DNA from: Lichenibacterium ramalinae
GTDB lineage: Bacteria > Pseudomonadota > Alphaproteobacteria > Rhizobiales > Beijerinckiaceae
DNA: 64,000 bases
Assembly: GCF_004137085.1 (NCBI RefSeq)
Contig: NZ_QYBC01000019.1
Coordinates: 1 to 64,000, forward strand
Direction: 5' to 3'
The notes under the pieces are model-generated. The model had not been told where the DNA came from. It worked only from the letters and a program-made list of their open reading frames with translations, and made no database searches. Made by a program: the position numbers and the translations under genes. How positions within the stretch are numbered: position 1 is the stretch's first letter; each line of letters begins with the position of its first letter. Below are positions 7,106 through 20,522 of the stretch, one piece after another.

Positions 7106-7954
7106 ATGAAATTGGTGCGCTACGGCGAGCCCGGACACGAGAAGCCGGGCCTGATCCACGGCGGCACGCTGCGCGACATCGGCCATATCGTGCCGGATCT
7201 CGCCGGCGAGCATCTCGGCCGCGAGTCGCTCGGCCGGATCAGGGCCGCGAACCCCGACGACTTGCCCGTGGTCGACGGCTCCCCGCGGATCGGGCCCTGC
7301 GTGGCGCGGCCCTGCAACTTCATCGCGGTGGGGCTCAACTTCGCCGACCATGCGGCGGAAACCGGCGCCCCGATCCCGAAGGAGCCGATCCTCTTCAACA
7401 AGGCTCCGAACTGCATCGTCGGGCCCAACGACACGGTGATGCTGCCCAAGGCGTCCGAGAAGAGCGACTGGGAGGTCGAGCTCGCCATCGTGATCGGCGC
7501 GCGGACGTCCTACGTCAACGAGAAGGAGGCGATGGACCACGTCGCGGGCTTCTGCGTCTGCAACGACGTGTCCGAGCGCGCCTTCCAGACCGAGCGCGGC
7601 GGCCAGTGGATGAAGGGCAAGGGCTGCGCCACCTTCGGCCCGCTCGGCCCCTGGCTGGTGACGCCCGACGAGATCGCCGACGTCCAGGCGCTCGACATGT
7701 GGCTCGACGTCAACGGCCGGCGCATGCAGACCGGCTCGACCGCCACGATGATCTTCAACGTGGTGCAGATCGTGTCCTACATCTCGCACTTCATGGTGCT
7801 GGAACCCGGCGACGTCATCACCACCGGCACGCCCCCCGGCGTCGGCCTCGGCATGAAGCCGCCGGTCTTCCTCAAGCCCGGCGACGTCATGGCGCTGGGC
7901 ATCGCGGGCCTCGGCGAGCAGAAGCAGAGCGTGGTGGGCTGGACCCGGGGCTGA
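7106..7954 (+). CDS. Fumarylacetoacetate hydrolase family protein
   Basis: The 282-residue protein covers the whole FAH fold used by hydratases, isomerases and acylpyruvases of aromatic and sugar-acid catabolism. Visible family signatures are NFADHAAETG, the metal-binding glutamates in DWEVELAIVIG, and Asp in CNDVSER. TTGTPPGVGLG near the C-terminus is also standard. It starts at ATG 7106 after a GGAGACGGAC stretch. It stands alone, divergent from the gene at 6954 and followed by a strong hairpin. Family assignment is firm; the substrate is not deducible. Ureidoglycolate lyase and 2,4-diketo-3-deoxy-sugar-acid hydrolase are among the possibilities. Confidence 0.88.
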   Translation: MKLVRYGEPGHEKPGLIHGGTLRDIGHIVPDLAGEHLGRESLGRIRAANPDDLPVVDGSPRIGPCVARPCNFIAVGLNFADHAAETGAPIPKEPILFNKAPNCIVGPNDTVMLPKASEKSDWEVELAIVIGARTSYVNEKEAMDHVAGFCVCNDVSERAFQTERGGQWMKGKGCATFGPLGPWLVTPDEIADVQALDMWLDVNGRRMQTGSTATMIFNVVQIVSYISHFMVLEPGDVITTGTPPGVGLGMKPPVFLKPGDVMALGIAGLGEQKQSVVGWTRG

Positions 7955-7991: not shown

Positions 7992-8867
7992 GGCACAGCC
8001 GTCGAGGCCGAGGCGCGGGGGCGCCGCCGCCATCCCATCTCTGGCGTCCGACCCGCCCGGCGAGGCGGTCGTTATGAGCACGCCAGACCTCGACTGCTCT
8101 TCAGCGCGTGGTCGATCAGTGTTCGAGCCTCGACGCCGTCCGCCGCCACTGACGCGCCCGGTCGGTCGCGGCAAACGCACTCCACTATTCTGGAGCTTTG
8201 AACTCCGTCGGTAGCGCCGCGCGCGCGGACCGAACCACGCCCTTCGATTGCACTCCGAACCATGGTGCAGAAGTGTGGTGCCCGATGCAGAACAGCGCGG
8301 AGGGCCGCCGAGGCTGCAGCCAGGCCAAGATGCCGGGAGTGACCGCTGGCGCGGCTCGGCGGAATGATCCGACAAACGCACCGACCCGGATCATCGCCGA
8401 GGTCGATCAAGACATCATCAGGACGAAGGCCCGGACGCGGCGAACCGCGGCAGCATCATCCGGCTCACCCACCCGGACGGATCCGCGGGTAGGAGCCGAG
8501 GCAGGCGACTCGGCCCCATCACGTCAGCCCCGGACAGCACGACCGAAGCATCGACTGAACTCTGCCGATGTCGCCGCTCGCGTTCGCCCGCCGGTCCCGG
8601 CGTATTGCGGACCATTTGATCGGCTCGAAGAACAGTGCGGCCGTACTCAACGCCGACGTGGTACTGTGACCGGCGCAGCTTCCGGCCGGAGCGATTTATG
8701 AGGGACCACACATCATCGGAGCTGCCAAGACGTGCTTCGCGCCCAGCATAGCAATGCTCCGCAACAGTGCCGGCGGTCGCACCGCGGGTTCGCTCGGCCG
8801 AGCGCATCTTGCTTTCTCTGACATTGACCGTCTAAGTCCCAACCGCAAACGACAGCAAGGAATCGTC
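7992..8867. other. Gene-poor stretch upstream of the atypical methyltransferase
   Basis: No open frame here has the codon bias of the neighbouring genes, and none matches a family I know. Base composition drifts from very GC-rich at the left to clearly lower GC at the right. The last part should hold the methyltransferase promoter. Broken genes may lie here, but I cannot identify any. Confidence 0.5.
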
Positions 8868-9968
8868 ATGCCGCCTCATGCCAAAAAAATCATCGCGGCG
8901 CTTGCTAGCTTGAGATCCGATTGGGAAGGGGAGGCGTCTCTCCCATTCGAGATCTCATTCGACGTCGAATCAGCAGCGCAGATCGACGACATCGTCAGGA
9001 GCGAGCCGAATCTCAAACCTACTTTGGAATTCTACCAAGGACGCATGTACAATACTTGCGATATTCATGGCTCCAAGGTGAGATGGCCGGCTGCGGGAAA
9101 CGGATTACCGTTTGCGCAATGGCTGTACAAAACTCCGATCACAGAGTTCGATGTGCCGAAACGCGATGAGAGTGAGCCCTTCATGGCGAGCTCGTCGTGC
9201 TGTGCTGCTGATTTCTTCCACCCGAGGTTCAAGGAACTCAGCGCGCTACTTGGCTTCGCACCCATCTACCACAGAAAATATTGGGAGTGGGTATTCATAC
9301 TGCACAAGGCTATGTCGCTCGGTGCTTGCGGGAACGGGAAGCGTGCACTCGGCTATGGGGTCGGCACAGAACCACTCCCCGCTGCGCTGGCCAAGGCTGG
9401 ATCATTTGTCCTCGCGACAGATGCGCCGGTGGAGATCGGCGTGAGTAAAGGCTGGTTGGCGGGAGGTCAATATTCGAGTGGCGTGGACAATCTTCACTAC
9501 CAGGGGATCATCGAACTCGACGAATTTCGGCAGAAAGTGGACTTCGCAGAAGCCGACATGAACGCGGTGTCGACCGGGTTCAACGATTTCGATTTTGTAT
9601 GGTCGTCATGTTGCCTGGAACATCTAGGGAGTCTGAAACATGGGCTAGATTTCATCGAGAATACCGTGGAGAAGAATTTGAAGGTCGGCGGGGTCGCCTG
9701 CCACACCACCGAATTCAACGTTTCGTCGGATCACGACACCGTAGAGGCCGGCGCCACCGTCTTATATCGTCGTAGGGATTTGATGGCGTTTGCGGAACGG
9801 CTGAGAAGTCGAGGCCATTCGGTCGAGCCGATCGTATTCGCTCCCGAATCCCATGTGCTGGATCAGTATGTCGACGTGCCGCCTTTTTCATCGCACGGCC
9901 ACCTCAAGTTACTGCTTGAGGGATATGCGTCGACATCGATCGGGATCGTCGTCAGGCGCGGAAAGTGA
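8868..9968 (+). CDS. Class I SAM-dependent methyltransferase-like protein, atypical composition
   Basis: The protein has 366 residues from ATG 8868, which follows an AAGGAA ribosome site; the frame is open upstream but looks non-coding. Near residue 200 is a glycine-rich motif, GYGVGTEPLPAALAKAG, followed by VLATD, matching motif I and the acidic post-motif of Rossmann methyltransferases. DFVWSSCCLEHL matches the conserved helix after motif II. The N-terminal 150 residues are not recognised. Such proteins often sit in O-antigen or sugar-modification clusters, but here it is alone. Its codons are much less GC-biased than those of all neighbours, which suggests horizontal transfer. The methyl acceptor is unknown. 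Confidence 0.72.
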   Translation: MPPHAKKIIAALASLRSDWEGEASLPFEISFDVESAAQIDDIVRSEPNLKPTLEFYQGRMYNTCDIHGSKVRWPAAGNGLPFAQWLYKTPITEFDVPKRDESEPFMASSSCCAADFFHPRFKELSALLGFAPIYHRKYWEWVFILHKAMSLGACGNGKRALGYGVGTEPLPAALAKAGSFVLATDAPVEIGVSKGWLAGGQYSSGVDNLHYQGIIELDEFRQKVDFAEADMNAVSTGFNDFDFVWSSCCLEHLGSLKHGLDFIENTVEKNLKVGGVACHTTEFNVSSDHDTVEAGATVLYRRRDLMAFAERLRSRGHSVEPIVFAPESHVLDQYVDVPPFSSHGHLKLLLEGYASTSIGIVVRRGK

Positions 9969-11043
9969 TGGATGGAACTTTGACGCGGCCCACCTTTTCG
10001 CACCCTGCCCTCTGGGCAAGGCTGTTCGAGCGCCGACGACTTCGACGAAAGGGTGAAACTTTTTCGGTCTGGACACCCGATGCGTCGAAGCTGTTCGACC
10101 GTCGGAACGACGTAGGGCTGCCTCGCGCTGGCTTGAACGAGCAGCCGAGCATGATCGAGAGCCGACGTGCGACACGGCGGATCGTTCGGGAAGTAGGATG
10201 TCCGCGGCAAACCAGCATGCCCGACAGTCTGGCGCTTCAGCTTGCGAGATCGCCTGCCATTACAGTTTGAGGGTGCTTCGAGAAGGCCCAGGCCGTCGTC
10301 CGTGTCCCTTGACCGGCGCAGCCGGATGGCCACCGCGATGGCGGCCTTCAGGCGACGACCCCGTGAGGCCCGACGAGCTGTCGAGCCTCAGCTCATTGGG
10401 CAAGGCAGGCCGATACCCGCGCCTGCGAGCCGGGTGCTGAGCCCGTGATCGGCCGTTCCGCCTGCAGCCCCTACCATCACCGTCCAGAAGCGACCTATGC
10501 CGAGAACGGACGGAGTCGGCACTGAACAGCTGGCTGGCGTCAGCCCACGCGCCATCGTCTGTCCTTCGCCCCGATGCGATGCCCGGCCCCCGGCCGACCC
10601 TGGCGACCTGCGAGCCGTGCTGTCGGCCATGGCGGACGCGAGGCAGCCGGGGTGGGTGCGGTGAGATGCGGCGTATCTGAGATGCGGTCCCGCCGATCTC
10701 CGAACGGGCGCCGGTCCGCTCGCATCGGCCGGCTTCCCAGCGAGCCGTCGCGCTGCACGGGAGTTCGAGCGGTCGAAGTGCGGCAGTCTGGTCGTCGACG
10801 CACCTTTGGCAAGGCCCGATCTCCGCGAGGCGCCGCGTTCGAAGCGCTTGTGTCGGACGGGTCCATTGTCGATAGCTTGGGCCTCATGCTGGCCGGGAGA
10901 TCATCCACCATTCGCCCTCGTCAACCTGGTCGGGCCTTCATCGCTCGAAACGCGCCGGGTCGACGGCGGCGGATGCGGGACCGCGACCTGGCGGCACGGG
11001 AAGGCCGCTCGTCGCGCCCGGTCGCGGAACGCGGGCGCCTCGG
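9969..11043. other. Gene-poor stretch downstream of the atypical methyltransferase
   Basis: About 1.07 kb with only short, overlapping, repeat-free open frames on both strands, none with a recognisable motif. Between 9970 and 10070 two AT-richer segments containing AACTTTG and AAACTTTTTC flank a GC-rich part. They could be the end of a lost insertion sequence, but no terminal repeat or transposase fragment can be shown. The right end should hold the promoter of the kinase gene at 11044. Confidence 0.45.
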
Positions 11044-14000
11044 ATGCAGCGCACGATGAACCCTCACATCCAGGCACCGCGATCATGCCTCGCGGGAGGT
11101 GGTGCGGCCGGAGAGCGGTTGCGAGCCACGGATTGGTCGGTCAACCCGCTCGGTCCCGTCGCGGCTTGGCCGCTGTCCCTGCAGGCGGCGGTGCGGATCG
11201 TGCTCAGCTCCAAGTTCCCCATGATGCTGCATTGGGGACCGGACCTGGTCACGATCTACAACGACGCTTACGCGCCCAGCCTCGGCCACAAACATCCCGG
11301 CAACCTCGGCCGTCCCGCGCGGGAATGGTGGTCGGAGATGTGGGACGAACTGACCCCCATCTTCGACCGGGTCCTGTCCGGAGAGGCCTTCTACGTCGAG
11401 GACGCGCGATATACCCCGGATCGTGACGGGGAGCCACAGGAAGCGTTCTTCACCCACTGCCACAGCCCGCTGTGGGACGACGAGGGTCGCGTCGCCGGCA
11501 TCTTCCTGGTCGTGACGGAAACGACCGCGCGCGTCGTCGCGGAACGCGAACTGTCGCGGACCAACGGCGAGCTGTTGGACAGGGTCGAGGCGGTTCGGGC
11601 CAGCGAGGCGCGCCTGCGCGCGATCGTCGGCACCGTGCCGGTCGGCATCGTCATGGCCGACGAGCGGGGTGCCGTGTACGGCGGCAACGCCCGTGCCGAG
11701 CAGATCTTCGGCCACGCCGTCCTGCGCTCCCCCGACCTGGACGCCTACGGTGACTGGATCGCCCACCATCCGGACGGCCGCCGCGTGCAGGGGCGAGAGT
11801 ACCCCCTGGCGCGCGTCTACGCCGGTGAGGAGCGGCCCGAGTTGGAATGCCTGTACCGCCGGGGCGACGGCCGTGAGGCCTGGGTGCGGATCATCGGCGC
11901 CCCGGTGCTCGACGGGGCGGGCGGGCTCATCGGTGGCATCGTCGCCGTGGTCGACATCGACCAGGAAAGGCGGGCGGCGGAGCGGCTGAGCGCCAGCGAG
12001 GCGCACTGGCGCGGGTTGTTCGAACGGCTGAACGAAGGGTTCATGGTCGTGGAGATGATCCGCGACGCCTCGGGTGTCGCCAGGACGTGGCGCTTCGTCG
12101 AGGCCAACGACGCCTGGGACCGCATCTCCGGCCTGTCACGGGCGAGCGCCATGGGCCGCGCCGTCGACGACGTGATCCCCGGCGTCGAGCAGGACTGGCT
12201 CGACAGGTACATCGCGGTGGCGGAAACCGGAGAGCCGCAGGCTTTCAGGATGCCGCTGCGGGTCCTCCACCAGATCTATGACGTCCGTGCGTTCCGCGTG
12301 GCCCCCGACCGCGTCGGCGTCCTGTTCCAGGAAGTGTCGAGGCAGCAGCGCGAGGAGATGCTTCGCTCGGCTCTGCTGCGCCTGGCGGACCGACTGCACG
12401 AGTTGAGCGATCCCGCCGAGATGGCGTTCGCGGCGTCGGAGGTCATCGGCGAAGCGCTGCGGGTCGCCCGCGTGGGATACGCCACCATGAGCGAGGATGG
12501 TGAGGCACTGACCATCGAGCGGGACTGGACGGCGCCGGGCTTCGCGAGCGGGACTGGCCTGCACCGGGCCTCCGACTACGGCAGGGCCGTTTCGGATCTG
12601 CGCGACGGCGATGCCGTGGTCATCGCGGACACGGCCCTCGACCCGCGGACCGCCAGGGACGGCATCGCGGGTTTCGACGCCTATGCCGTCCGTGCTCTCG
12701 TCAACCTGCCGCTGATCGAACAGGGGCGCATGGTGGCCTTCCTCTACGTCAACGACCAGGCCTCCCGGGCCTGGACCCCTGAGGAAGTCGCCTTCATCCA
12801 GACCGCGGCAGGGCAGACGAGGGTGGCGACGGAACGGCGCCGTGTCGAAGGCGAGCTGCGACGGCTGGCGGCATCGCTGGAGCAGCAGGTCGAACGGCGA
12901 ACCGCCGAGCGCGACAGGGCGTGGCGCTTGTCGCAGCAGTTGCTCGTGACCGCCACGCAGGACGGCGTCATCGTGAGCGTCAACCCGGTCTGGACGCGGC
13001 TGCTCGGCTGGACGGCGGCCGAGCTCGTCGGCACCTCCTTCGCGCATTACACGCATCCCGACGACCTCGCCGCGACGCTGCAGGCGTTCGCGAGCGTGCT
13101 GGAGCGACCCCTGGCCGTGCCGTACGAGTACCGTTTCCGTCACAAGGATGGTGCCTATCACTGGTTCGCCTGGACGGGCGCCTTCGAGGACGGACTCGTC
13201 TACGCGACCGGCCGCGACCTGAAGGTCGAACGCGAGCAGGCCGAGGTCCTGCGGCAGGCGCAGAAGATGGAAGCCGTGGGGCAACTCACGGGTGGCGTCG
13301 CTCACGACTTCAACAACCACCTGACCGTGATCCGCTCGTCGGCCGACCTCCTGAAGCGTGCGGACCTGCCGGAGGAGCGCCGCCGTCGCTACGTGGCCGC
13401 CATCTCCGACACTGCGGACCGTGCGGCCAAGCTCACCGGCCAATTGCTCGCCTTCGCGCGGCGCCAGGCGCTCAAGCCCGAGATCTTCGATGCCTGCGCG
13501 AGCGTGCGCGCCTTGTTGGACATGATGGCAACGCTGACCGGTTCGCGGATCAAAGTCACCCTCGACCTGCCCGACGGTGGCTGCTTCGTGGTTGCCGATC
13601 CGAGCCAGTTCGACACGGCCCTGGTCAACATGGCCGTCAACGCGCGAGACGCCATGGACGGCGTTGGCCTGCTCACCATCGCCGTTCGCGAGGTCGACGG
13701 GATGCCCGCCGTCCGCGCCGATCCCTCCCGGCAGGGGCCGTTCGTGGCCATCACCCTGGCGGACACGGGGAGCGGCATCCCCGCCGACCGCTTGGACCGC
13801 ATCTTCGAGCCGTTCTACACGACGAAGGACACCGGCAAGGGCACAGGGCTCGGCCTGAGCCAGGTGTTCGGGTTCACCAAACAATCCGGAGGTGAGGTCA
13901 CGGTCGCGAGCGTGGTCGGGAAAGGCACCGCATTCACGCTCTATGTGCCGCGTGTCGCGGCCGAGGCGCCCGCGCTCGCGGCGGGCGAACCCGCCATCGA

Positions 14001-14418
14001 GATGCTGGCCGACGGGCACGGCACACGCGTCCTCGTGGTCGAGGACAACGACGACGTCGGCACCTCCGTCGAGCAGGCCCTGGCCGACCTGGGTTACGTT
14101 ACCGTCCTGGCCCGCAGCGCCGAGGAGGGCTTGGCGGAACTGGCCCGCGATCCGGACCGGTTCGACGTGGTGTTCACCGACGTCATGATGCCGGGCATGA
14201 ACGGCATCGACCTGGGTCACGAGATCCGGCGCCTCCACGGTGACCTGCCCGTGGTCCTGACGTCCGGCTACAGCCTCGTCCTGGCGCAGGAGGGCACGCA
14301 TGGGTTCGACCTGCTGCGAAAGCCCTACTCGGCGGAACAACTGTCCCGGATCCTGCGTGGCCATGCCGGGCGGAAGACGCGCACGGCCACGCCCGGGCCG
14401 GCCACCTCGCCACCTTGA
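11044..14418 (+). CDS. Multi-PAS/GAF hybrid histidine kinase with C-terminal receiver
   Basis: A soluble hybrid sensor kinase of 1124 residues. Order: an N-terminal PAS-like region (about 20-160, with SLQAAVRIVLSSKFPMMLHWG), two further PAS regions (about 175-310 and 315-425), a GAF domain (about 435-600), a coiled linker, a PAS domain (about 640-745), then HisKA with His754 in GGVAHDFNN. The ATPase N-box is [12 protein letters not shown], with G-boxes DTGSGIP and GTGLGLS, and the receiver carries Asp1046 in VVFTDVMMPG. No membrane helix is visible. ATG 11044 or 11056 may be used. It is a close paralogue of the next gene and has no output domain, so it should feed an external phosphotransferase or regulator. 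Confidence 0.88.
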   Translation: MQRTMNPHIQAPRSCLAGGGAAGERLRATDWSVNPLGPVAAWPLSLQAAVRIVLSSKFPMMLHWGPDLVTIYNDAYAPSLGHKHPGNLGRPAREWWSEMWDELTPIFDRVLSGEAFYVEDARYTPDRDGEPQEAFFTHCHSPLWDDEGRVAGIFLVVTETTARVVAERELSRTNGELLDRVEAVRASEARLRAIVGTVPVGIVMADERGAVYGGNARAEQIFGHAVLRSPDLDAYGDWIAHHPDGRRVQGREYPLARVYAGEERPELECLYRRGDGREAWVRIIGAPVLDGAGGLIGGIVAVVDIDQERRAAERLSASEAHWRGLFERLNEGFMVVEMIRDASGVARTWRFVEANDAWDRISGLSRASAMGRAVDDVIPGVEQDWLDRYIAVAETGEPQAFRMPLRVLHQIYDVRAFRVAPDRVGVLFQEVSRQQREEMLRSALLRLADRLHELSDPAEMAFAASEVIGEALRVARVGYATMSEDGEALTIERDWTAPGFASGTGLHRASDYGRAVSDLRDGDAVVIADTALDPRTARDGIAGFDAYAVRALVNLPLIEQGRMVAFLYVNDQASRAWTPEEVAFIQTAAGQTRVATERRRVEGELRRLAASLEQQVERRTAERDRAWRLSQQLLVTATQDGVIVSVNPVWTRLLGWTAAELVGTSFAHYTHPDDLAATLQAFASVLERPLAVPYEYRFRHKDGAYHWFAWTGAFEDGLVYATGRDLKVEREQAEVLRQAQKMEAVGQLTGGVAHDFNNHLTVIRSSADLLKRADLPEERRRRYVAAISDTADRAAKLTGQLLAFARRQALKPEIFDACASVRALLDMMATLTGSRIKVTLDLPDGGCFVVADPSQFDTALVNMAVNARDAMDGVGLLTIAVREVDGMPAVRADPSRQGPFVAITLADTGSGIPADRLDRIFEPFYTTKDTGKGTGLGLSQVFGFTKQSGGEVTVASVVGKGTAFTLYVPRVAAEAPALAAGEPAIEMLADGHGTRVLVVEDNDDVGTSVEQALADLGYVTVLARSAEEGLAELARDPDRFDVVFTDVMMPGMNGIDLGHEIRRLHGDLPVVLTSGYSLVLAQEGTHGFDLLRKPYSAEQLSRILRGHAGRKTRTATPGPATSPP

Positions 14419-14649: not shown

Positions 14650-17600
14650 ATGGACAAAGGCGAACTCGATCCGCGCCTCACGGAAGGCGAGTACCGCGCG
14701 GAGATCGTCCGCCTGCGCGCCCTCGTGGCAGGTGCCCCGGCATCATCGACGACATCGGATCACGTCTCCTCCGAGATTGCCGGCACGGACCTCGGCGAAG
14801 ACCCGTTCTTCGCCGCGGTCCAGGCCACACGCATGCCCATGGTGGTATCGAACCCACGCCTGCCCGATAACCCGATCGTCTTCGCCAACGACGCCTTCTG
14901 CAGGCTGACCCGCTACCCTCGTGCGGAGATCCTCGGTCGGAACTGCCGTTTCCTGCAATGCGCCGACACGGATCCCGACACGGTGGCCCGCATCCGGGCC
15001 GCCATAGCCGTTCCCGAGGCCGTCGAGATCGAGATCGAGAACGCGCGTCGAGACGGCACGCGCTTCTGGAATCGGCTCCTGACGGCACCGGTCCACGGTG
15101 CCGACGGCACCCTGCGCTACTTCTTCGCCAGCCAGGTCGACATCACGGCCGAACGGAACCGTCTGACGGGACTGGAGAGCCACAACGTGGCACTCGCCAC
15201 GGAGATGGCCGGACGCGCCGAGGCTCAGGAGCGGAGCGAGGAACGCCTGCGCTTCGCGACCGAGGCCGGCAAGCTCGGCGTCTGGGACCTCGATCTCCGG
15301 ACACACGAGATGGAGGCCTCGCCACGCTGCGCCGAGAACTTCGGCCTCCCGCGATCCTGGCGTCTCACCTACGCCGACATCCAGGCTGCCGTGCACCCCG
15401 ACGATCGAGAGCGTCGCGAAGCGGCAGTGGCGCAGGCGGCGAGGACCGGGGACGATTACGACATCGAGTATCGCATCATCCGCCCCGACGGCAGCACGGG
15501 GTGGGTGCAGGTCCGCGCCAGGACGATGATCGAGGCAGACGGGCGGTCGCCTCACCTCGTCGGCATCTCGCTCGACGTCACGGAACGCGCGGTGGCCGAC
15601 ATCCGCCGGCGTGCCCTCGTCGAACTCGGGGACGCGATCCGCGACGGTACGGACCCGGACGGGGTCGCGTTCACGGCGGCCAGGATCCTCGGCACGACGC
15701 TGGGCGTCAGTCGCGCCGGTTACGGCACGGTCGACCTCACCCGCGAGACGATCACCATCGAGCGGGACTGGAACGCGCCGGGGATCCGAAGCCTCGCCGG
15801 TGTCCTCCACTTCCGCGACTACGGATCGTACATCGACGACCTGAAGCGCGGCGAGACGGTGGTCTTCGCCGACGCGGAAACCGACCCGAGGACGGCGGCG
15901 ACGGCCAACGCCCTGCAGGCCATCAGCGCAACAGCGGTCGTCAACATGCCGGTGACCGAACACGCGGGGCTGGTGGCCCTGCTCTATCTCAACCATGCGA
16001 CGGCGCGACGTTGGTCGCCCGGTGAACTGGCCTTCGTTCGGGACGCCGCCGAGCGGACCCGCGTCGCGGTCGAGCGCCGTCGAGCCGAGCAGGACCTCGT
16101 CGAACTCGCCGCGTCGCTGGAACGGCGGGTCGAGGAGCGCACACGGGAGCGTGACCGGGCCTGGAAGCTGTCACGCGACCTTCAGGCCGTGGTGGACCAG
16201 GACGGGATCTTCGTCGCCGTCAACCAGGCCTGGACCGCCATCCTGGGGTGGAGACCCGACGAGGTCGTCGGCCGCCATCACCTCGCCTTCGAGCATGCCG
16301 ACCATCATGCCGACAGCGTGTCGGCACTCCGGGCGGCGTTGGAGTCCGGGTTGCCCGCCTACGAGACGCGTTGCCTGCATGCCGACGGGAGCACACGCTG
16401 GATCTCTTGGGTGGCCGCCTCCCAGGACGCAATGGTCTACGCCAGCGGCCGCGACGTGTCGCAGGAGCGGGAGCGCGAAGCCATCCTGCGGGACACCCAG
16501 GACTTCGCCCGGCTCGCCCTCTCCGCCGTGGGCGGAGTGGGCGTGTGGATCCATGAGGCCGCCACCGACCGGTTCTCCTACGACGCCGCCATCGCCGACC
16601 TCTACGCTCTCGACCCCCAACGAGGGCCGAAGGGCATCCCGCGCGTCGAATTCCTCGCCAACGTGCATCCCGACGATCGCGCGGCCCTGACGACCACCAT
16701 GGCGAGTGGTCTCGTGCATCCGGGCGATCTGGAACTGGAGTATCGGATCTGCCATCCGAATGGCGTCATACGATGGGTGCTGTCGCGCGGGCACACCTAT
16801 CACGACGCGGAGGGGCAGCCCGTCCGCCGGACGGGCGTGGGCGTCGAGACGACGAAGCAACGACAGACCGAAGAGGCGCTGCGTCAGTCGCAGAAGATGG
16901 AGGCCGTGGGCCAGCTCACCGGCGGTGTCGCGCATGATTTCAACAACCTGCTGACCGTGATCCGGTCGTCGGTGGACCTGCTGAAACGGCGGGACCTGCC
17001 GGAGGAACGTCGCGTCCGCTACGTCGGCGCGATCTCGGACACCGTCGATCGCGCCGCCAAGCTCACCGGCCAGTTGCTCGCCTTCGCGCGCAGGCAGGCG
17101 CTGAAGCCGGAAGTCTTCGCCGCCAGCGACGGCGTGCAAGGCCTCAGGGACATGATCGGCACCCTGACCGGATCACGGATCCTCGTCACGACCGAGCTGC
17201 CGGAGGAGCCCTGCTTCGTCGAAGCGGACCGGAGCCAATTCGACACGGCGCTGGTGAACTTGGCGGTCAATGCCAGGGACGCCATGGACGGCGAAGGGCA
17301 ACTCACGATCCGCGTCGAGGCCGTCGACCACAAGCCGCCCGTTCGCGCGCATGACGGCGTCGATGGAGCGTTCGTGGCGATCTCGGTCATCGATGTGGGA
17401 AGCGGTATCCCGCCAGAGCGCCTCGATCAAATCTTCGAGCCCTTCTTCACCACCAAAGCCGTCGGGCAGGGGACCGGCCTCGGCCTGAGCCAGGTGTTCG
17501 GCTTCGCCAAGCAGTCTGGCGGCGAGATCCTGGTCGAGAGCGAAGTCGGTCGCGGCACGACGTTCACCCTCTACCTGCCCCGCGTCCCGGCGCCCGAACA

Positions 17601-18027
17601 GGCCTCGAACGACCACGAACCCGCTCCTCTCGTGGACGGACACGGCACCGGCGTTCTGGTCGTCGAAGACAATGCCGAGGTCGGCTCTTTCGCGGTTCAG
17701 ACCCTGACCGATCTTGGCTACGTGCCGGTACTGGCAGGCAACGCCGAAGAGGCATTGGCAGAGCTGGCCCGTGACGCCAGCCGGTTCGACGTCGTGTTCA
17801 CCGACGTGGTCATGCCGGGCATGAACGGCATCGAACTCGGGGGGGAGATCCGCCGCCGGTACCGCGACCTGCCGGTGCTGCTGGCGTCGGGCTACAGCCA
17901 CGTGTTGGCGCAGAACGGCACCGACGGTTTCGAGCTGCTGCACAAGCCCTACTCGGTCGAGCAACTCTCCCGCCTGCTGCGCAAGGTCGCCGCCTGGCAG
18001 CGTCGCAGCCGCATCATCAGACCCTGA
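14650..18027 (+). CDS. LOV-domain hybrid histidine kinase (putative blue-light sensor)
   Basis: A soluble protein of 1125 residues. Residues about 45-165 form a LOV domain: the flavin-adduct motif GRNCRFLQ places the photoactive Cys at 99, followed by [11 protein letters not shown] and the [10 protein letters not shown] strand. Then come a PAS (about 195-320), a GAF (about 320-490), a coiled linker, two PAS domains (about 510-620 and 620-745), HisKA with His762 in GGVAHDFNN, a HATPase with [12 protein letters not shown] and GTGLGLS, and a receiver with Asp1052 in [11 protein letters not shown] prefer ATG 14650 because the upstream open frame is basic and non-conserved. In this family blue light forms a Cys-FMN adduct that alters kinase activity; the target is unknown. 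Confidence 0.9.
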
Positions 18028-18351: not shown

Positions 18352-18425
18352 TGGAGCGGGTGAAGGGAATCGAACCCTCGTCATCAGCTTGGAAGGCTGT
18401 TGCTCTACCATTGAGCTACACCCGC
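18352..18425 (-). tRNA. tRNA-Gly (anticodon TCC)
   Basis: A 74-nt cloverleaf on the minus strand. The acceptor stem GCGGGTG pairs with CACCCGC, the D-arm contains AGCTCAATGGTAGAGC, the anticodon loop is CTTCCAA, and the T-arm holds GGTTCGATTCC. The 3' CCA is encoded, preceded by a T discriminator. Confidence 0.95.
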
Positions 18426-18499
18426 ATGCTCGTCACGCTAGCATCGGCGCCCGGTCGCAGCAACCCTTCGGTGTCGGCCAGACCAGTCGATGGAGGTGA

Positions 18500-18584
18500 T
18501 GGTGGAGGAGGTAGGACTCGAACCTACGAAGGCATAGCCAGCGGATTTACAGTCCGCCCCCTTTGCCGCTCGGGACACTCCTCC
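18500..18584 (-). tRNA. tRNA-Tyr (anticodon GTA)
   Basis: An 85-nt class II tRNA with a long variable arm on the minus strand. The acceptor stem is GGAGGAG/CTCCTCC, the anticodon loop contains CTGTAAA, the T-arm GGTTCGAGTCC, and ACCA is encoded at the 3' end. It lies 74 bp upstream of tRNA-Gly on the same strand and is probably co-transcribed with it. Confidence 0.95.
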
Positions 18585-18695
18585 GTCCCATCCCGCGGCG
18601 CCGCTCGGCGCCGCCGGACTGGCGCGCTTATCGCGGCGGGCGGTGGTTCTGTCAACCCCGAGCGTGACGGCCGCGTGACCGGTCCGGGGCTCCGC

Positions 18696-20522
18696 TCAGG
18701 AGACGGCGGCCCCGGTCTCCTTGCTCTCGGCCCGGTGCTGCGCCGGCCCGAACTCGCGGCTGAGGTTGTGGGCCGTGTTGATCAGGGCCACGTGGGTGAA
18801 GGCCTGCGGGAAGTTGCCGACCTGGCGCTTCGCGACGGAATCGTATTCTTCCGACAGCAGGCCCACGTCGTTGCGGAGCGCGATCAGCCGCTCGAACAGG
18901 GCCCGGGCTTCGTCGAGACGGCCCATGAGGACGTAATTGTCGGCGAGCCAGAAGGAGCAGGGCAGGAAGGCGCCCTCGTGGCCGCCCGCCAGCCCGTCGA
19001 CGTTGCCGGTCTCGTCGTAGCGCTTCACGAAGCCGTCCTCGAGCAGGTGATCCTCGATGGCCTTGACGGTGGCGACCACGCGAGGGTCGTCGGCCGGCAG
19101 GAACCCCACCATGGCCATCAGCAGCAGGCTCGCGTCGAGCGACGTGCCGCCGTAATATTGCGTGAAGCAGCCCTTCTCGGCGCTGAAGCCGCGCTCGCAC
19201 ACCTCGCGGTGCACCTGGTCCCGGACGCCGCGCCACCGGTCGACCGGGCCGGCCAGGCCGTATTCCTCGACGGAGCGGATGGCCCGGTCGAAGGCGGCCC
19301 AGACCATCACCTTCGAGGCGGTGAAATGCTTGCGCCCGCCCCGCACCTCCCAGATGCCCTCGTCGGGCTGCTGCCAGATGGTCTCGAGGTGGCCGACCAG
19401 GGCGCGCTCCAGGTTCCAGCCGTTGTCGTCGGGCGCGAGCCCGAGGCGGCGCGCCTGGTACATGGCGTCGAGCACCTCGCCGTAGACGTCGAGCTGCAGC
19501 TGGCCGGCCGCGGCATTGCCGATCCGCACCGGGGTCGAGCCCTCGTAGCCGGCGAGCCACGGCACCTCGTATTCCTCGAGCCTGCGCTCGCCCGCGATGC
19601 CGTACATGATCTGCATCTGGTCGGGCGAGCCCGCGATGGCGCGGATCAGCCAGTCGCGCCAGGCGCTGGCCTCCTCGAGGAAGCCCGAGGTGAGCAGCGC
19701 GTAGAGCGTCAGCGTGGCGTCCCGCAGCCAGCAGTAGCGGTAGTCCCAGTTGCGCGGTCCCCCGAGCTGCTCGGGCAGCGACGTGGTGGGTGCCGCCACG
19801 ATGCCGCCGGTCTCGTAGTGGGTCAGGGCCTTGAGGGTGATCAGCGACCGCTGCACCACCTCCACCCAGTCGCCCGCCGTCTCGGTCCGGTGCGAGCGGG
19901 CCCAGTCGGTCCAGTCTTCGGTGACGAGTTCGATGATCTGGGCGGGGTCGACCGCCTGCGGCACGGGATGGAAGGAGGGCGACCAGGTCAGCGTGAAAGC
20001 CGTGTCGGCGCCCTCCTCGGCGGTGAACTCGCCCAGCGTGCGGAAGTCCTGGCCGCGCAGCGGCACCGTCGTGTCCAGCACGTAGCGGTCGGGTCCCGCC
20101 ACGGCCGCCACGCGCCCGTCGGCGAGCCGGCTCACCCAGGGCACCACCGTCCCGTAGCCGGGCCGCAGCACGATCTCGACCCGCATCGGCACGCTGCCGC
20201 TCTCGGCCCGCACGAGGCGCACGACGTCGCCGTGGCCTTCGCGCCGGCCCATGGCGTCGACCAGCAGCACGGTGCCGGCCTCCGTCTCGAAGCGGGTTTC
20301 GAGCACCAGCGTGCCCTCGCGGTAGCGCCGCGTCACCCGCGTCACCGGCACGGCCGGGGCGATCTGCCAACGGCCGTTCTCGGGCGTGCCGAGAAGGGCC
20401 GCGAAGGAGGCGTGCGAATCGAAGCGCGGCAGGGCCATCCAGTCGATCGAGCCGTCGCGCCCGACGAGCGCGGCGCTCTCGCAATTGCCGATCAACGCAT
20501 AGTCTTCGATTCGCAGCGCCAT
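18696..20522 (-). CDS. Glycoside hydrolase family 15 protein (glucoamylase/trehalase-like)
   Basis: The protein has 608 residues. The N-terminal beta-sandwich begins with YALIGNCESAALVGRDGSIDWMALPRFD split over the family signature. The catalytic (alpha/alpha)6 barrel starts near residue 230 and includes GGPRNWDYRYCWLRDA and DEGIWEVRG. These phrases are characteristic of the bacterial GH15 group that includes trehalases and alpha-glucosidases. Glu in EGIWE is a likely catalytic acid. No signal peptide is visible, so it should act in the cytoplasm, possibly on trehalose or short alpha-glucans. It stands 70 nt before the nucleoside hydrolase gene on the same strand. Substrate is not certain. 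Confidence 0.88.
   Translation of the reverse strand: MALRIEDYALIGNCESAALVGRDGSIDWMALPRFDSHASFAALLGTPENGRWQIAPAVPVTRVTRRYREGTLVLETRFETEAGTVLLVDAMGRREGHGDVVRLVRAESGSVPMRVEIVLRPGYGTVVPWVSRLADGRVAAVAGPDRYVLDTTVPLRGQDFRTLGEFTAEEGADTAFTLTWSPSFHPVPQAVDPAQIIELVTEDWTDWARSHRTETAGDWVEVVQRSLITLKALTHYETGGIVAAPTTSLPEQLGGPRNWDYRYCWLRDATLTLYALLTSGFLEEASAWRDWLIRAIAGSPDQMQIMYGIAGERRLEEYEVPWLAGYEGSTPVRIGNAAAGQLQLDVYGEVLDAMYQARRLGLAPDDNGWNLERALVGHLETIWQQPDEGIWEVRGGRKHFTASKVMVWAAFDRAIRSVEEYGLAGPVDRWRGVRDQVHREVCERGFSAEKGCFTQYYGGTSLDASLLLMAMVGFLPADDPRVVATVKAIEDHLLEDGFVKRYDETGNVDGLAGGHEGAFLPCSFWLADNYVLMGRLDEARALFERLIALRNDVGLLSEEYDSVAKRQVGNFPQAFTHVALINTAHNLSREFGPAQHRAESKETGAAVS

Follow-up and report, generated by a model that had tools for sequence, protein, structure and literature searches.

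A mosaic LOV hybrid histidine kinase in Lichenibacterium ramalinae, with sensor and kinase halves of apparently different ancestry

Gene and domain organization

The 64,000-nucleotide stretch of Lichenibacterium ramalinae DNA analysed here (the window) encodes, at positions 14650–18027 of the forward strand, a LOV hybrid histidine kinase of 1125 aa, with an open frame from the ATG at 14650 to the stop codon ending at 18027. Its domain order is LOV-PAS-GAF-PAS-PAS-HisKA-HATPase-receiver. Comparison with related kinases suggests that the gene is a mosaic, in which the sensory front and the kinase back have different ancestries. A preliminary description, made from the letters alone, recognized a LOV core with Cys99 heading a PAS/GAF/HisKA/receiver protein, and this is borne out by the open frame, by Pfam, NCBIfam and Brucella LOV-HK matches and by a fold model; the GAF and three further PAS regions that it also reported are placed by profile search.

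The LOV domain (14797–15159, aa 50–170) was assigned from the Brucella LOV-HK match, NCBIfam, and AlphaFold with Foldseek. It contains the codon of Cys99 (14944–14946), predicted from motif and alignment to be the flavin-adduct cysteine in GRNCRFLQ. Downstream, all on the forward strand, lie PAS2 (15235–15597, aa 196–316, with Pfam PAS_3 at 221–306), the GAF domain (15613–16083, aa 322–478, from Pfam and a segment search), PAS3 (16111–16485, aa 488–612), PAS4 (16495–16860, aa 616–737), HisKA and HATPase_c (16861–17604, aa 738–985) and the receiver (17635–18009, aa 996–1120). With curated cut-offs, Pfam reports nine families, namely five PAS-family models, GAF (335–473), HisKA (754–817), HATPase_c (860–978) and Response_reg (1002–1108); the boundaries of PAS2, PAS3 and PAS4 were set by us and are approximate. 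The residues expected of a hybrid histidine kinase are all in place: the phospho-acceptor His762, the N-box residue Asn874, intact G1 and G2 boxes, the receiver phospho-acceptor Asp1052, and Lys1099. The full-length model has a predicted template modelling score of 0.38 and was used for secondary structure alone; residues 612–629 and 646–661 are among its low-confidence stretches. The G+C contents of the two halves are similar (69.0 and 67.4%).

Among the proteins examined, in segment searches with the kinase's own domains that a divergent PAS could escape, the order LOV-PAS-GAF-PAS-PAS-kinase-receiver was found once. The emphasis that the preliminary description laid on unusual complexity is nevertheless a weak argument, since LOV kinases extended by PAS and GAF domains exist in the same genome, in the genus and in Sphingomonas.

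The LOV domain

The LOV segment matches Brucella LOV-HK (E 2e-41, residues 49–177) and, at domain level and under the whole-protein cut-offs, the NCBIfam models BluLightHisKinLov (8e-47) and YtvA_fam (1e-36). Cys99 lies within GRNCRFLQ, a form of the GXNCRFLQ motif. Across 16 aligned LOV domains, this one among them and 15 drawn from loci fetched for the analysis, the Asn-Cys-Arg..Gln motif, two later Asn residues, FWN and the terminal Gln do not vary. The two Asn residues and the terminal Gln (N102, N112 and Q133 in A1 numbering) are, from phototropin LOV2, taken to be contacts of flavin mononucleotide (FMN). Loss of the pocket residues around Cys99, which the preliminary description had named as grounds for rejecting a LOV assignment, is therefore not what is found. 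The AlphaFold model of the domain (mean predicted local distance difference test score 78) has the LOV domain of Brucella LOV-HK as its top Foldseek matches, with a root-mean-square deviation of 1.3–1.7 Å to 6ph2. Flavin binding and a response to light, with its sign, are predicted.

Relatives of the two halves

When the genus was searched (five congeners and the genome itself), the congener gene G002:C92 covered residues 4–615 at 74% identity and a second, G005:C220, covered residues 458–1123 at 71%. In 199 genomes of the family, the N-terminal half is 75% identical to G002:C92 (residues 4–609) and the C-terminal half 78% identical to G005:C220. Matches to the N-terminal half at E<=1e-120 occur in six of these genomes (six candidates scored per genome) and to the C-terminal half at E<=1e-130 in 28 (seven candidates scored per genome), the genome itself included each time. 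In windows of 25 residues, identity to G002:C92 is 52–54% over the first 50 residues, 56–96% at 51–600 and 16–76% in the kinase-receiver part; identity to G005:C220 is 8–60% where aligned before residue 600 and 52–96% beyond. The two profiles change over at about residues 576–625. At the DNA level, 14793–16457 matches G002:C92 and 16393–18017 matches G005:C220. PAS3 is the last domain held in common with the LOV parent type; a PAS4 match is missing in G002:C92 and present in G005:C220 and G076:C8, and a LOV match is missing in G005:C220.

Identities were also computed half by half for the 36 pairs of nine LOV kinases and are given as N-terminal/C-terminal percentages, C1 and C2 being our own labels for kinase classes. 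The kinase under study gives 76/40 (G002:C92), 60/42, 59/41 and 55/41 against four C2-class proteins, and 51–54/68–71 against four from Sphingomonas. Values are 57–73/73–92 within the C2 group (G002:C92 and three class-mates; six pairs), 74–88/84–93 within the Sphingomonas group (six pairs) and 52–58/38–43 between the two groups (16 pairs), whose sensors are thus of one kind and whose kinases differ. Of the nine, the L. ramalinae protein alone has a kinase of class C1 behind a sensor close to the C2 type.

Phylogenetic trees of the two parts disagree in the same way. In the sensor tree (17 rows, LOV-PAS2-GAF) the protein pairs with G002:C92 at 100/100 support. In the kinase tree it falls in a 10-row clade (93/93) with eight other kinases and the nearest same-strand gene upstream, a tandem hybrid kinase (11044–14418, forward strand) that the preliminary description did not mention and that comprises PAS domains, GAF, HisKA, HATPase and receiver; none of these nine has a LOV match. 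G002:C92 lies in a separate 12-row clade (100/98) with other LOV-PAS-GAF-PAS kinases of the genus and with LOV-less ones. A single kinase clade for the L. ramalinae protein and G002:C92 is rejected by the approximately unbiased (AU) test (difference in log-likelihood, delta lnL, 373; p 2e-76). The kinase tree used 70 of 103 rows, those from loci L011–L021 and L041–L101 being left out; in it a row of the same family (L149, genome G147) nearly coincides with a kinase of Methylobacterium sp. Leaf125, which makes it probable that Methylobacterium belongs to the family. The 17-row sensor tree requires three or more changes of kinase class. The minimum of 12 LOV-label changes on the kinase tree was not used as evidence, the labels being incomplete (L125 is a possible split half, and the cysteine of L146 was unchecked).

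The breakpoint and the joint

Breakpoints were sought in codon alignments of the gene with G002:C92 and G005:C220, with the upstream kinase as a fourth row in one version. The best single breakpoint in the four-row alignment is at window position 16443 (score 339, 637 informative sites). In the three-row alignment it is at 16440, with sites divided 275:67 before and 103:331 after, and the gain of 416 was reached by 0 of 1000 permutations. The upstream kinase as third gene again gives 16443 (gain 418, 0 of 1000 permutations). Nine trios were tested in all. More distant stand-ins, C36 and L123, give a weaker signal elsewhere (gain 182, 0 of 1000, gene position 1436), and six control trios lacking the gene give gains of 2–64. 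One control, G002:C92 with C36 and L023, reaches a gain of 14 (20 of 1000 permutations) at the N-terminal edge. Another, comprising the LOV-PAS-GAF-PAS kinases of this genome, G003 and G001 (L109:5362–8415, L120:4767–7853 and L121:6560–9619), has a weak breakpoint of its own (gain 64, 23 of 1000 permutations) that may mark a further, minor exchange.

Conflicting trees for the two halves together with one sharp breakpoint, both seen here, are the marks of a recombinant gene. The inferred crossover (16440–16475, forward strand) falls where the final strand of PAS3 gives way to the signalling helix, with G002:C92-like sequence before and G005:C220-like sequence after. The joint lies at about residues 597–609; the model shows strand 595–602, the last of PAS3, followed by a helix at 604–616. 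Both parental types read GRDVTAEKE here and the mosaic protein GRDVSQERE, and its alignment with G005:C220 is gapless through the linker. In a descriptive count of 95 kinases with a recognizable His motif, 67 of which also have the PAS-end motif, the acidic residue of the latter motif lies 29, 36, 43 or 50 positions (7n+1) before the phospho-acceptor His in 61 of the 67; the distance is 29 in the mosaic kinase and also in the upstream kinase, counted by eye there because the pattern missed it. How the engineered LOV-FixL chimera YF1 responds to light depends on the heptads of its linker (PMC6798134). The Sphingomonas proteins, L130 and L133–L135 use a second type of joint, after the GAF helix.

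The simplest history would take the LOV-PAS-GAF-PAS front from the C2 lineage and the PAS-kinase-receiver back from the C1 lineage. The tandem neighbour was considered as donor of the back and set aside, G005:C220 being closer and sharing PAS4, which the neighbour lacks.

Proposed mechanism and output pathway

Taken together, the gene is read as the product of an exchange between two hybrid kinases that are distant paralogues, encoding a mosaic, soluble receptor kinase for blue light whose output was re-wired to a C1 phosphorelay; we put the probability of this reading at about 0.72. The domains, acceptor residues, mosaic ancestry and in-register joint are, so far as sequence can tell, well founded. 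A LOV-PAS-GAF-PAS array of the C2 lineage would have been joined to a PAS-HisKA-HATPase-receiver part of the LOV-less C1 lineage where PAS3 ends and the signalling helix starts. Blue light would then form a Cys99-FMN adduct in the LOV domain, and the change would pass as helix rotation or supercoiling through the PAS2, GAF, PAS3 and PAS4 linkers to the dimerisation/phosphotransfer (DHp) helices. The net phosphorylation state of His762 would change, as would phosphotransfer to Asp1052, and Asp1052 would pass the signal to an Hpt protein or regulator serving C1 kinases, including the tandem neighbour. The GAF domain and PAS2–4 probably supply a second input.

The partner choice of histidine kinases resides in their DHp and receiver parts. 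Over the 74-residue DHp region the protein is 91% identical (67/74) to the upstream kinase, 85% to G005:C220 and 84% to a LOV-less C1 kinase of its own genome (C36:457433); against the LOV kinases of that genome the values are 61% (C36), 62% (C74), 53% (C58) and 62% (C12, the presumed continuation of C71, which ends before the kinase). The receiver is 70% identical to that of the upstream kinase and 32–41% identical to those of C36, C74, C58 and C12. Because the regions that determine partner choice resemble those of C1 kinases, the protein most likely feeds the pathway of that class, which is large, with at least seven matches per genome in some genomes (seven candidates examined in each). 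The preliminary description had found no targets adjacent and left the output open. Its first point stands, in that a search of the own genome with the whole protein (102 matches; 150 of 169 candidates scored) gave no stand-alone receiver in the window; the second can now be narrowed to the kinase class of the tandem neighbour.

Weighing of alternatives

Several observations weigh against the proposed exchange and its consequences. The exchange is evidently not recent, because the nearest relatives of both halves are only 75–78% identical, and the parents are represented only by congener genes, the exact donors not having been seen. Placement within the 10-row kinase clade has moderate support (93/85 for six rows), the bootstrap of the kinase tree was not fully settled, and the groups for the AU test were picked after the similarity searches. 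Sites are mixed close to the joint, four of G005 type at 16393–16404 being followed by eleven of G002 type at 16419–16440, so its position is known to tens of bases only. The linker count is descriptive, since the pattern was altered after a first look, the kinases are related and 28 of 95 lack the PAS-end motif. All four Hpt matches in the genome are on other contigs. Within the LOV domain, window positions 14905–14916 encode LTRY where the 15 other compared domains have the glycine of LTGY, and FLQC stands in place of the FLQG of 14 compared domains (G002:C92 also has FLQC); these changes could alter the photochemistry or photocycle. Such replacements of usual glycines could point to a LOV domain that is present but blind or put to redox use, in a kinase that is not light-gated, and LOV proteins may act as redox sensors (PMC6798134). 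This is unlikely here, as the core adduct and flavin-contact positions are intact and the fold model fits solved LOV structures.

As to the history, the gene could be a plain LOV hybrid kinase, passed on vertically with domains gained or lost singly, in which uneven rates produced the mosaic pattern. Gain and loss of input domains are common, and PMC4603909 argues that what looks like shuffling is more likely to be loss and subsequent gain than a direct transfer between proteins. The explanation is improbable for this gene, in which LOV, PAS2, GAF and PAS3 jointly track one relative and PAS4, kinase and receiver another, the sharp breakpoint lies inside alignable PAS3 sequence, and co-inheritance of the kinase half with G002:C92 meets the delta lnL of 373. 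Were G002:C92 the recombinant instead, LOV-PAS-GAF-PAS would ancestrally have sat on a C1 kinase and the G002 lineage would have swapped its kinase. LOV-PAS-GAF arrays on C1 kinases do exist (Sphingomonas L023–L028 and L030; L130, L134 and L135), but they lack PAS3 and form no single clade with the L. ramalinae protein in either tree; forcing the 11 C1-class LOV-PAS-GAF kinases together gives delta lnL values of 169 (kinase tree) and 55 (sensor tree). The pairing of LOV-PAS-GAF-PAS with a C2 kinase is moreover found in C36 of the same genome, G003:C155 and G001:3577, with whose kinases that of G002:C92 groups (89/73, inside the 12-row clade), and the nine rows around the L. ramalinae kinase lack a LOV match, all of which leaves little room for a swap in G002. 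Fusion of two kinase genes during assembly might be suspected in a 76-contig draft with many similar kinases, yet it is very improbable: contig C53 is contiguous through the joint with the frame open, neither half has a near-identical locus in the genome (best matches 53% to the sensor half and 71% to the kinase half), and the truncated LOV pieces on C71 and C12, the only ones noticed, fit each other.

Genome setting

The genome comprises 5.8 Mb in 76 contigs. It has 11 LOV-like matches (E<=0.001), five of which carry the Cys motif; the motif pattern did not match the other six. Besides the mosaic kinase, the Cys-bearing proteins are LOV-PAS-GAF-PAS-kinase-receiver on C36, LOV-PAS cut by a contig end on C71, LOV-PAS-kinase-receiver on C74 and LOV-kinase-receiver on C58, and with these four in the same genome the architecture of the mosaic kinase, taken alone, is not exotic. 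Several LOV kinases per genome have been published for the Methylobacterium group, PMC4844311 giving seven for M. populi. The cut gene on C71 (L110:9012–10085) and a GAF-kinase-receiver gene at the edge of contig C12 (L125:40–1821) look like one LOV-PAS-GAF-kinase-receiver gene split by assembly. The genome also encodes one phytochrome PHY domain. A link to photosynthesis was considered and dropped, as no reaction-centre match was obtained in the genome; BLUF and other photoreceptor families were outside the search.

Directly downstream of the mosaic kinase are genes for tRNA-Gly(tcc) and tRNA-Tyr(gta) (18352–18584). G003 shares these tRNA genes and a GH15 gene (together 18352–20522) in conserved form; the match to each of the remaining four congeners starts at GH15. 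The kinase pair is unmatched in the five congener flanks (blastn, 1e-8; about 16 kb of the relevant side for four of them and 6 kb for G005), which offer no clean empty site, and the counterpart in G003 of a FAH-family gene at 7106 lies on the same contig as GH15 but about 113 kb from it. The kinase pair therefore occupies a rearranged place where synteny breaks, from which we draw no conclusion on the direction of insertion. Origin from a mobile element or phage was also entertained and rejected: six stretches in viral contigs matched the search pattern, none of which encodes a relative of the sensor half. No plasmid match was obtained for 8000–11100, and scans for promoters and terminators found none (0.3 and 1.5 in shuffles).

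Comparison with known systems

Xac-LOV and similar LOV-kinase-receiver hybrids (PRK13557, NF010076) share the N-terminal LOV domain, HisKA-HATPase and the C-terminal receiver. NF010076 is the best NCBIfam match, with 522.7 bits in three stretches, below its cut-off of 631. Xac-LOV is a LOV-kinase-receiver protein of 540 aa (PMC3366940) and, from its length and domain order, would belong to this family; the L. ramalinae protein differs in being about twice as long, in the PAS-GAF-PAS-PAS array between LOV and kinase and in its mosaic ancestry. NF052306 (blue-light-activated histidine kinase LOV) gives 179.1 bits over residues 54–191 only, below its cut-off of 450.

Closer are the LOV-PAS-GAF-PAS-kinase-receiver proteins of the genus (G002:C92, C36, G003:C155 and G001:3577), with the same domain order and N-terminal halves 52–75% identical; their C2 kinase-receiver parts are only 40–42% identical and they have no PAS4 match. 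In G002, the divergent neighbour of this LOV parent type (L117:5465–6700, reverse strand) also encodes a LOV protein, this one with a HisKA_2/HWE kinase, so that two photoreceptor genes stand head to head. The Sphingomonas LOV-PAS-GAF-kinase-receiver proteins (L023–L028 and L030) share the LOV-PAS-GAF order and a C1 kinase-receiver part (C-terminal halves 68–71% identical in the four of seven compared); they differ in lacking PAS3 and PAS4 matches, in having the joint after the GAF helix, in N-terminal identity (51–54%) and in lying on another branch in both trees.

Among solved structures, Brucella LOV-HK (PDB 6ph2–6ph4 and 6pps) has the closest LOV domain by sequence and fold, likewise followed by a PAS domain. 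Its kinase is of HWE type, whereas the L. ramalinae protein has HisKA, a receiver and more sensor domains. Among solved kinase cores, 5idj, of the CckA-type hybrid kinases, is the nearest in sequence (3e-47), 5idm being CckA (7e-29). Orthology with CckA was rejected, NF046020 and NF046026 giving 337.3 and 285.5 bits against a cut-off of 1000. The engineered YtvA LOV-FixL chimera YF1 (PDB 4gcz) also has a LOV domain set on a foreign kinase, the junction falling between PAS and helix and the coupling depending on heptads (PMC6798134). The present protein differs in being natural, in the transfer of a whole four-domain array and in a joint that precedes a further PAS domain and not the kinase.

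Implications

No natural LOV-kinase chimera was found in the literature, as judged by titles and abstract openings, most subscription papers lying outside the coverage. The exchange proposed here would be a natural counterpart of the engineers' operation, with the cut after a PAS/LOV strand and the helix register kept. It argues for direct exchange at least once, against the loss-then-gain view put forward in PMC4603909. At loci L119 and L123 of G001, C1 and C2 hybrid kinases adjoin in opposite orientation, an arrangement that could favour such exchanges.

More speculatively, in-register exchange at coiled-coil boundaries may be recurrent in the genus, plugging one blue-light array into different phosphorelays, and the mosaic kinase may form heterodimers with its upstream neighbour, on which it would confer a light response in trans; the latter is suggested by the 91% DHp identity with this LOV-less tandem neighbour, and the proposal as a whole is tentative and rather doubtful. 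The C1 assignment offers a specific conjecture on the output pathway, which the preliminary description left open. Both parental types still have relatives in the genus, so that the chimera, the LOV parent type and the kinase parent type would together allow a test of whether light coupling is kept while the partner changes.

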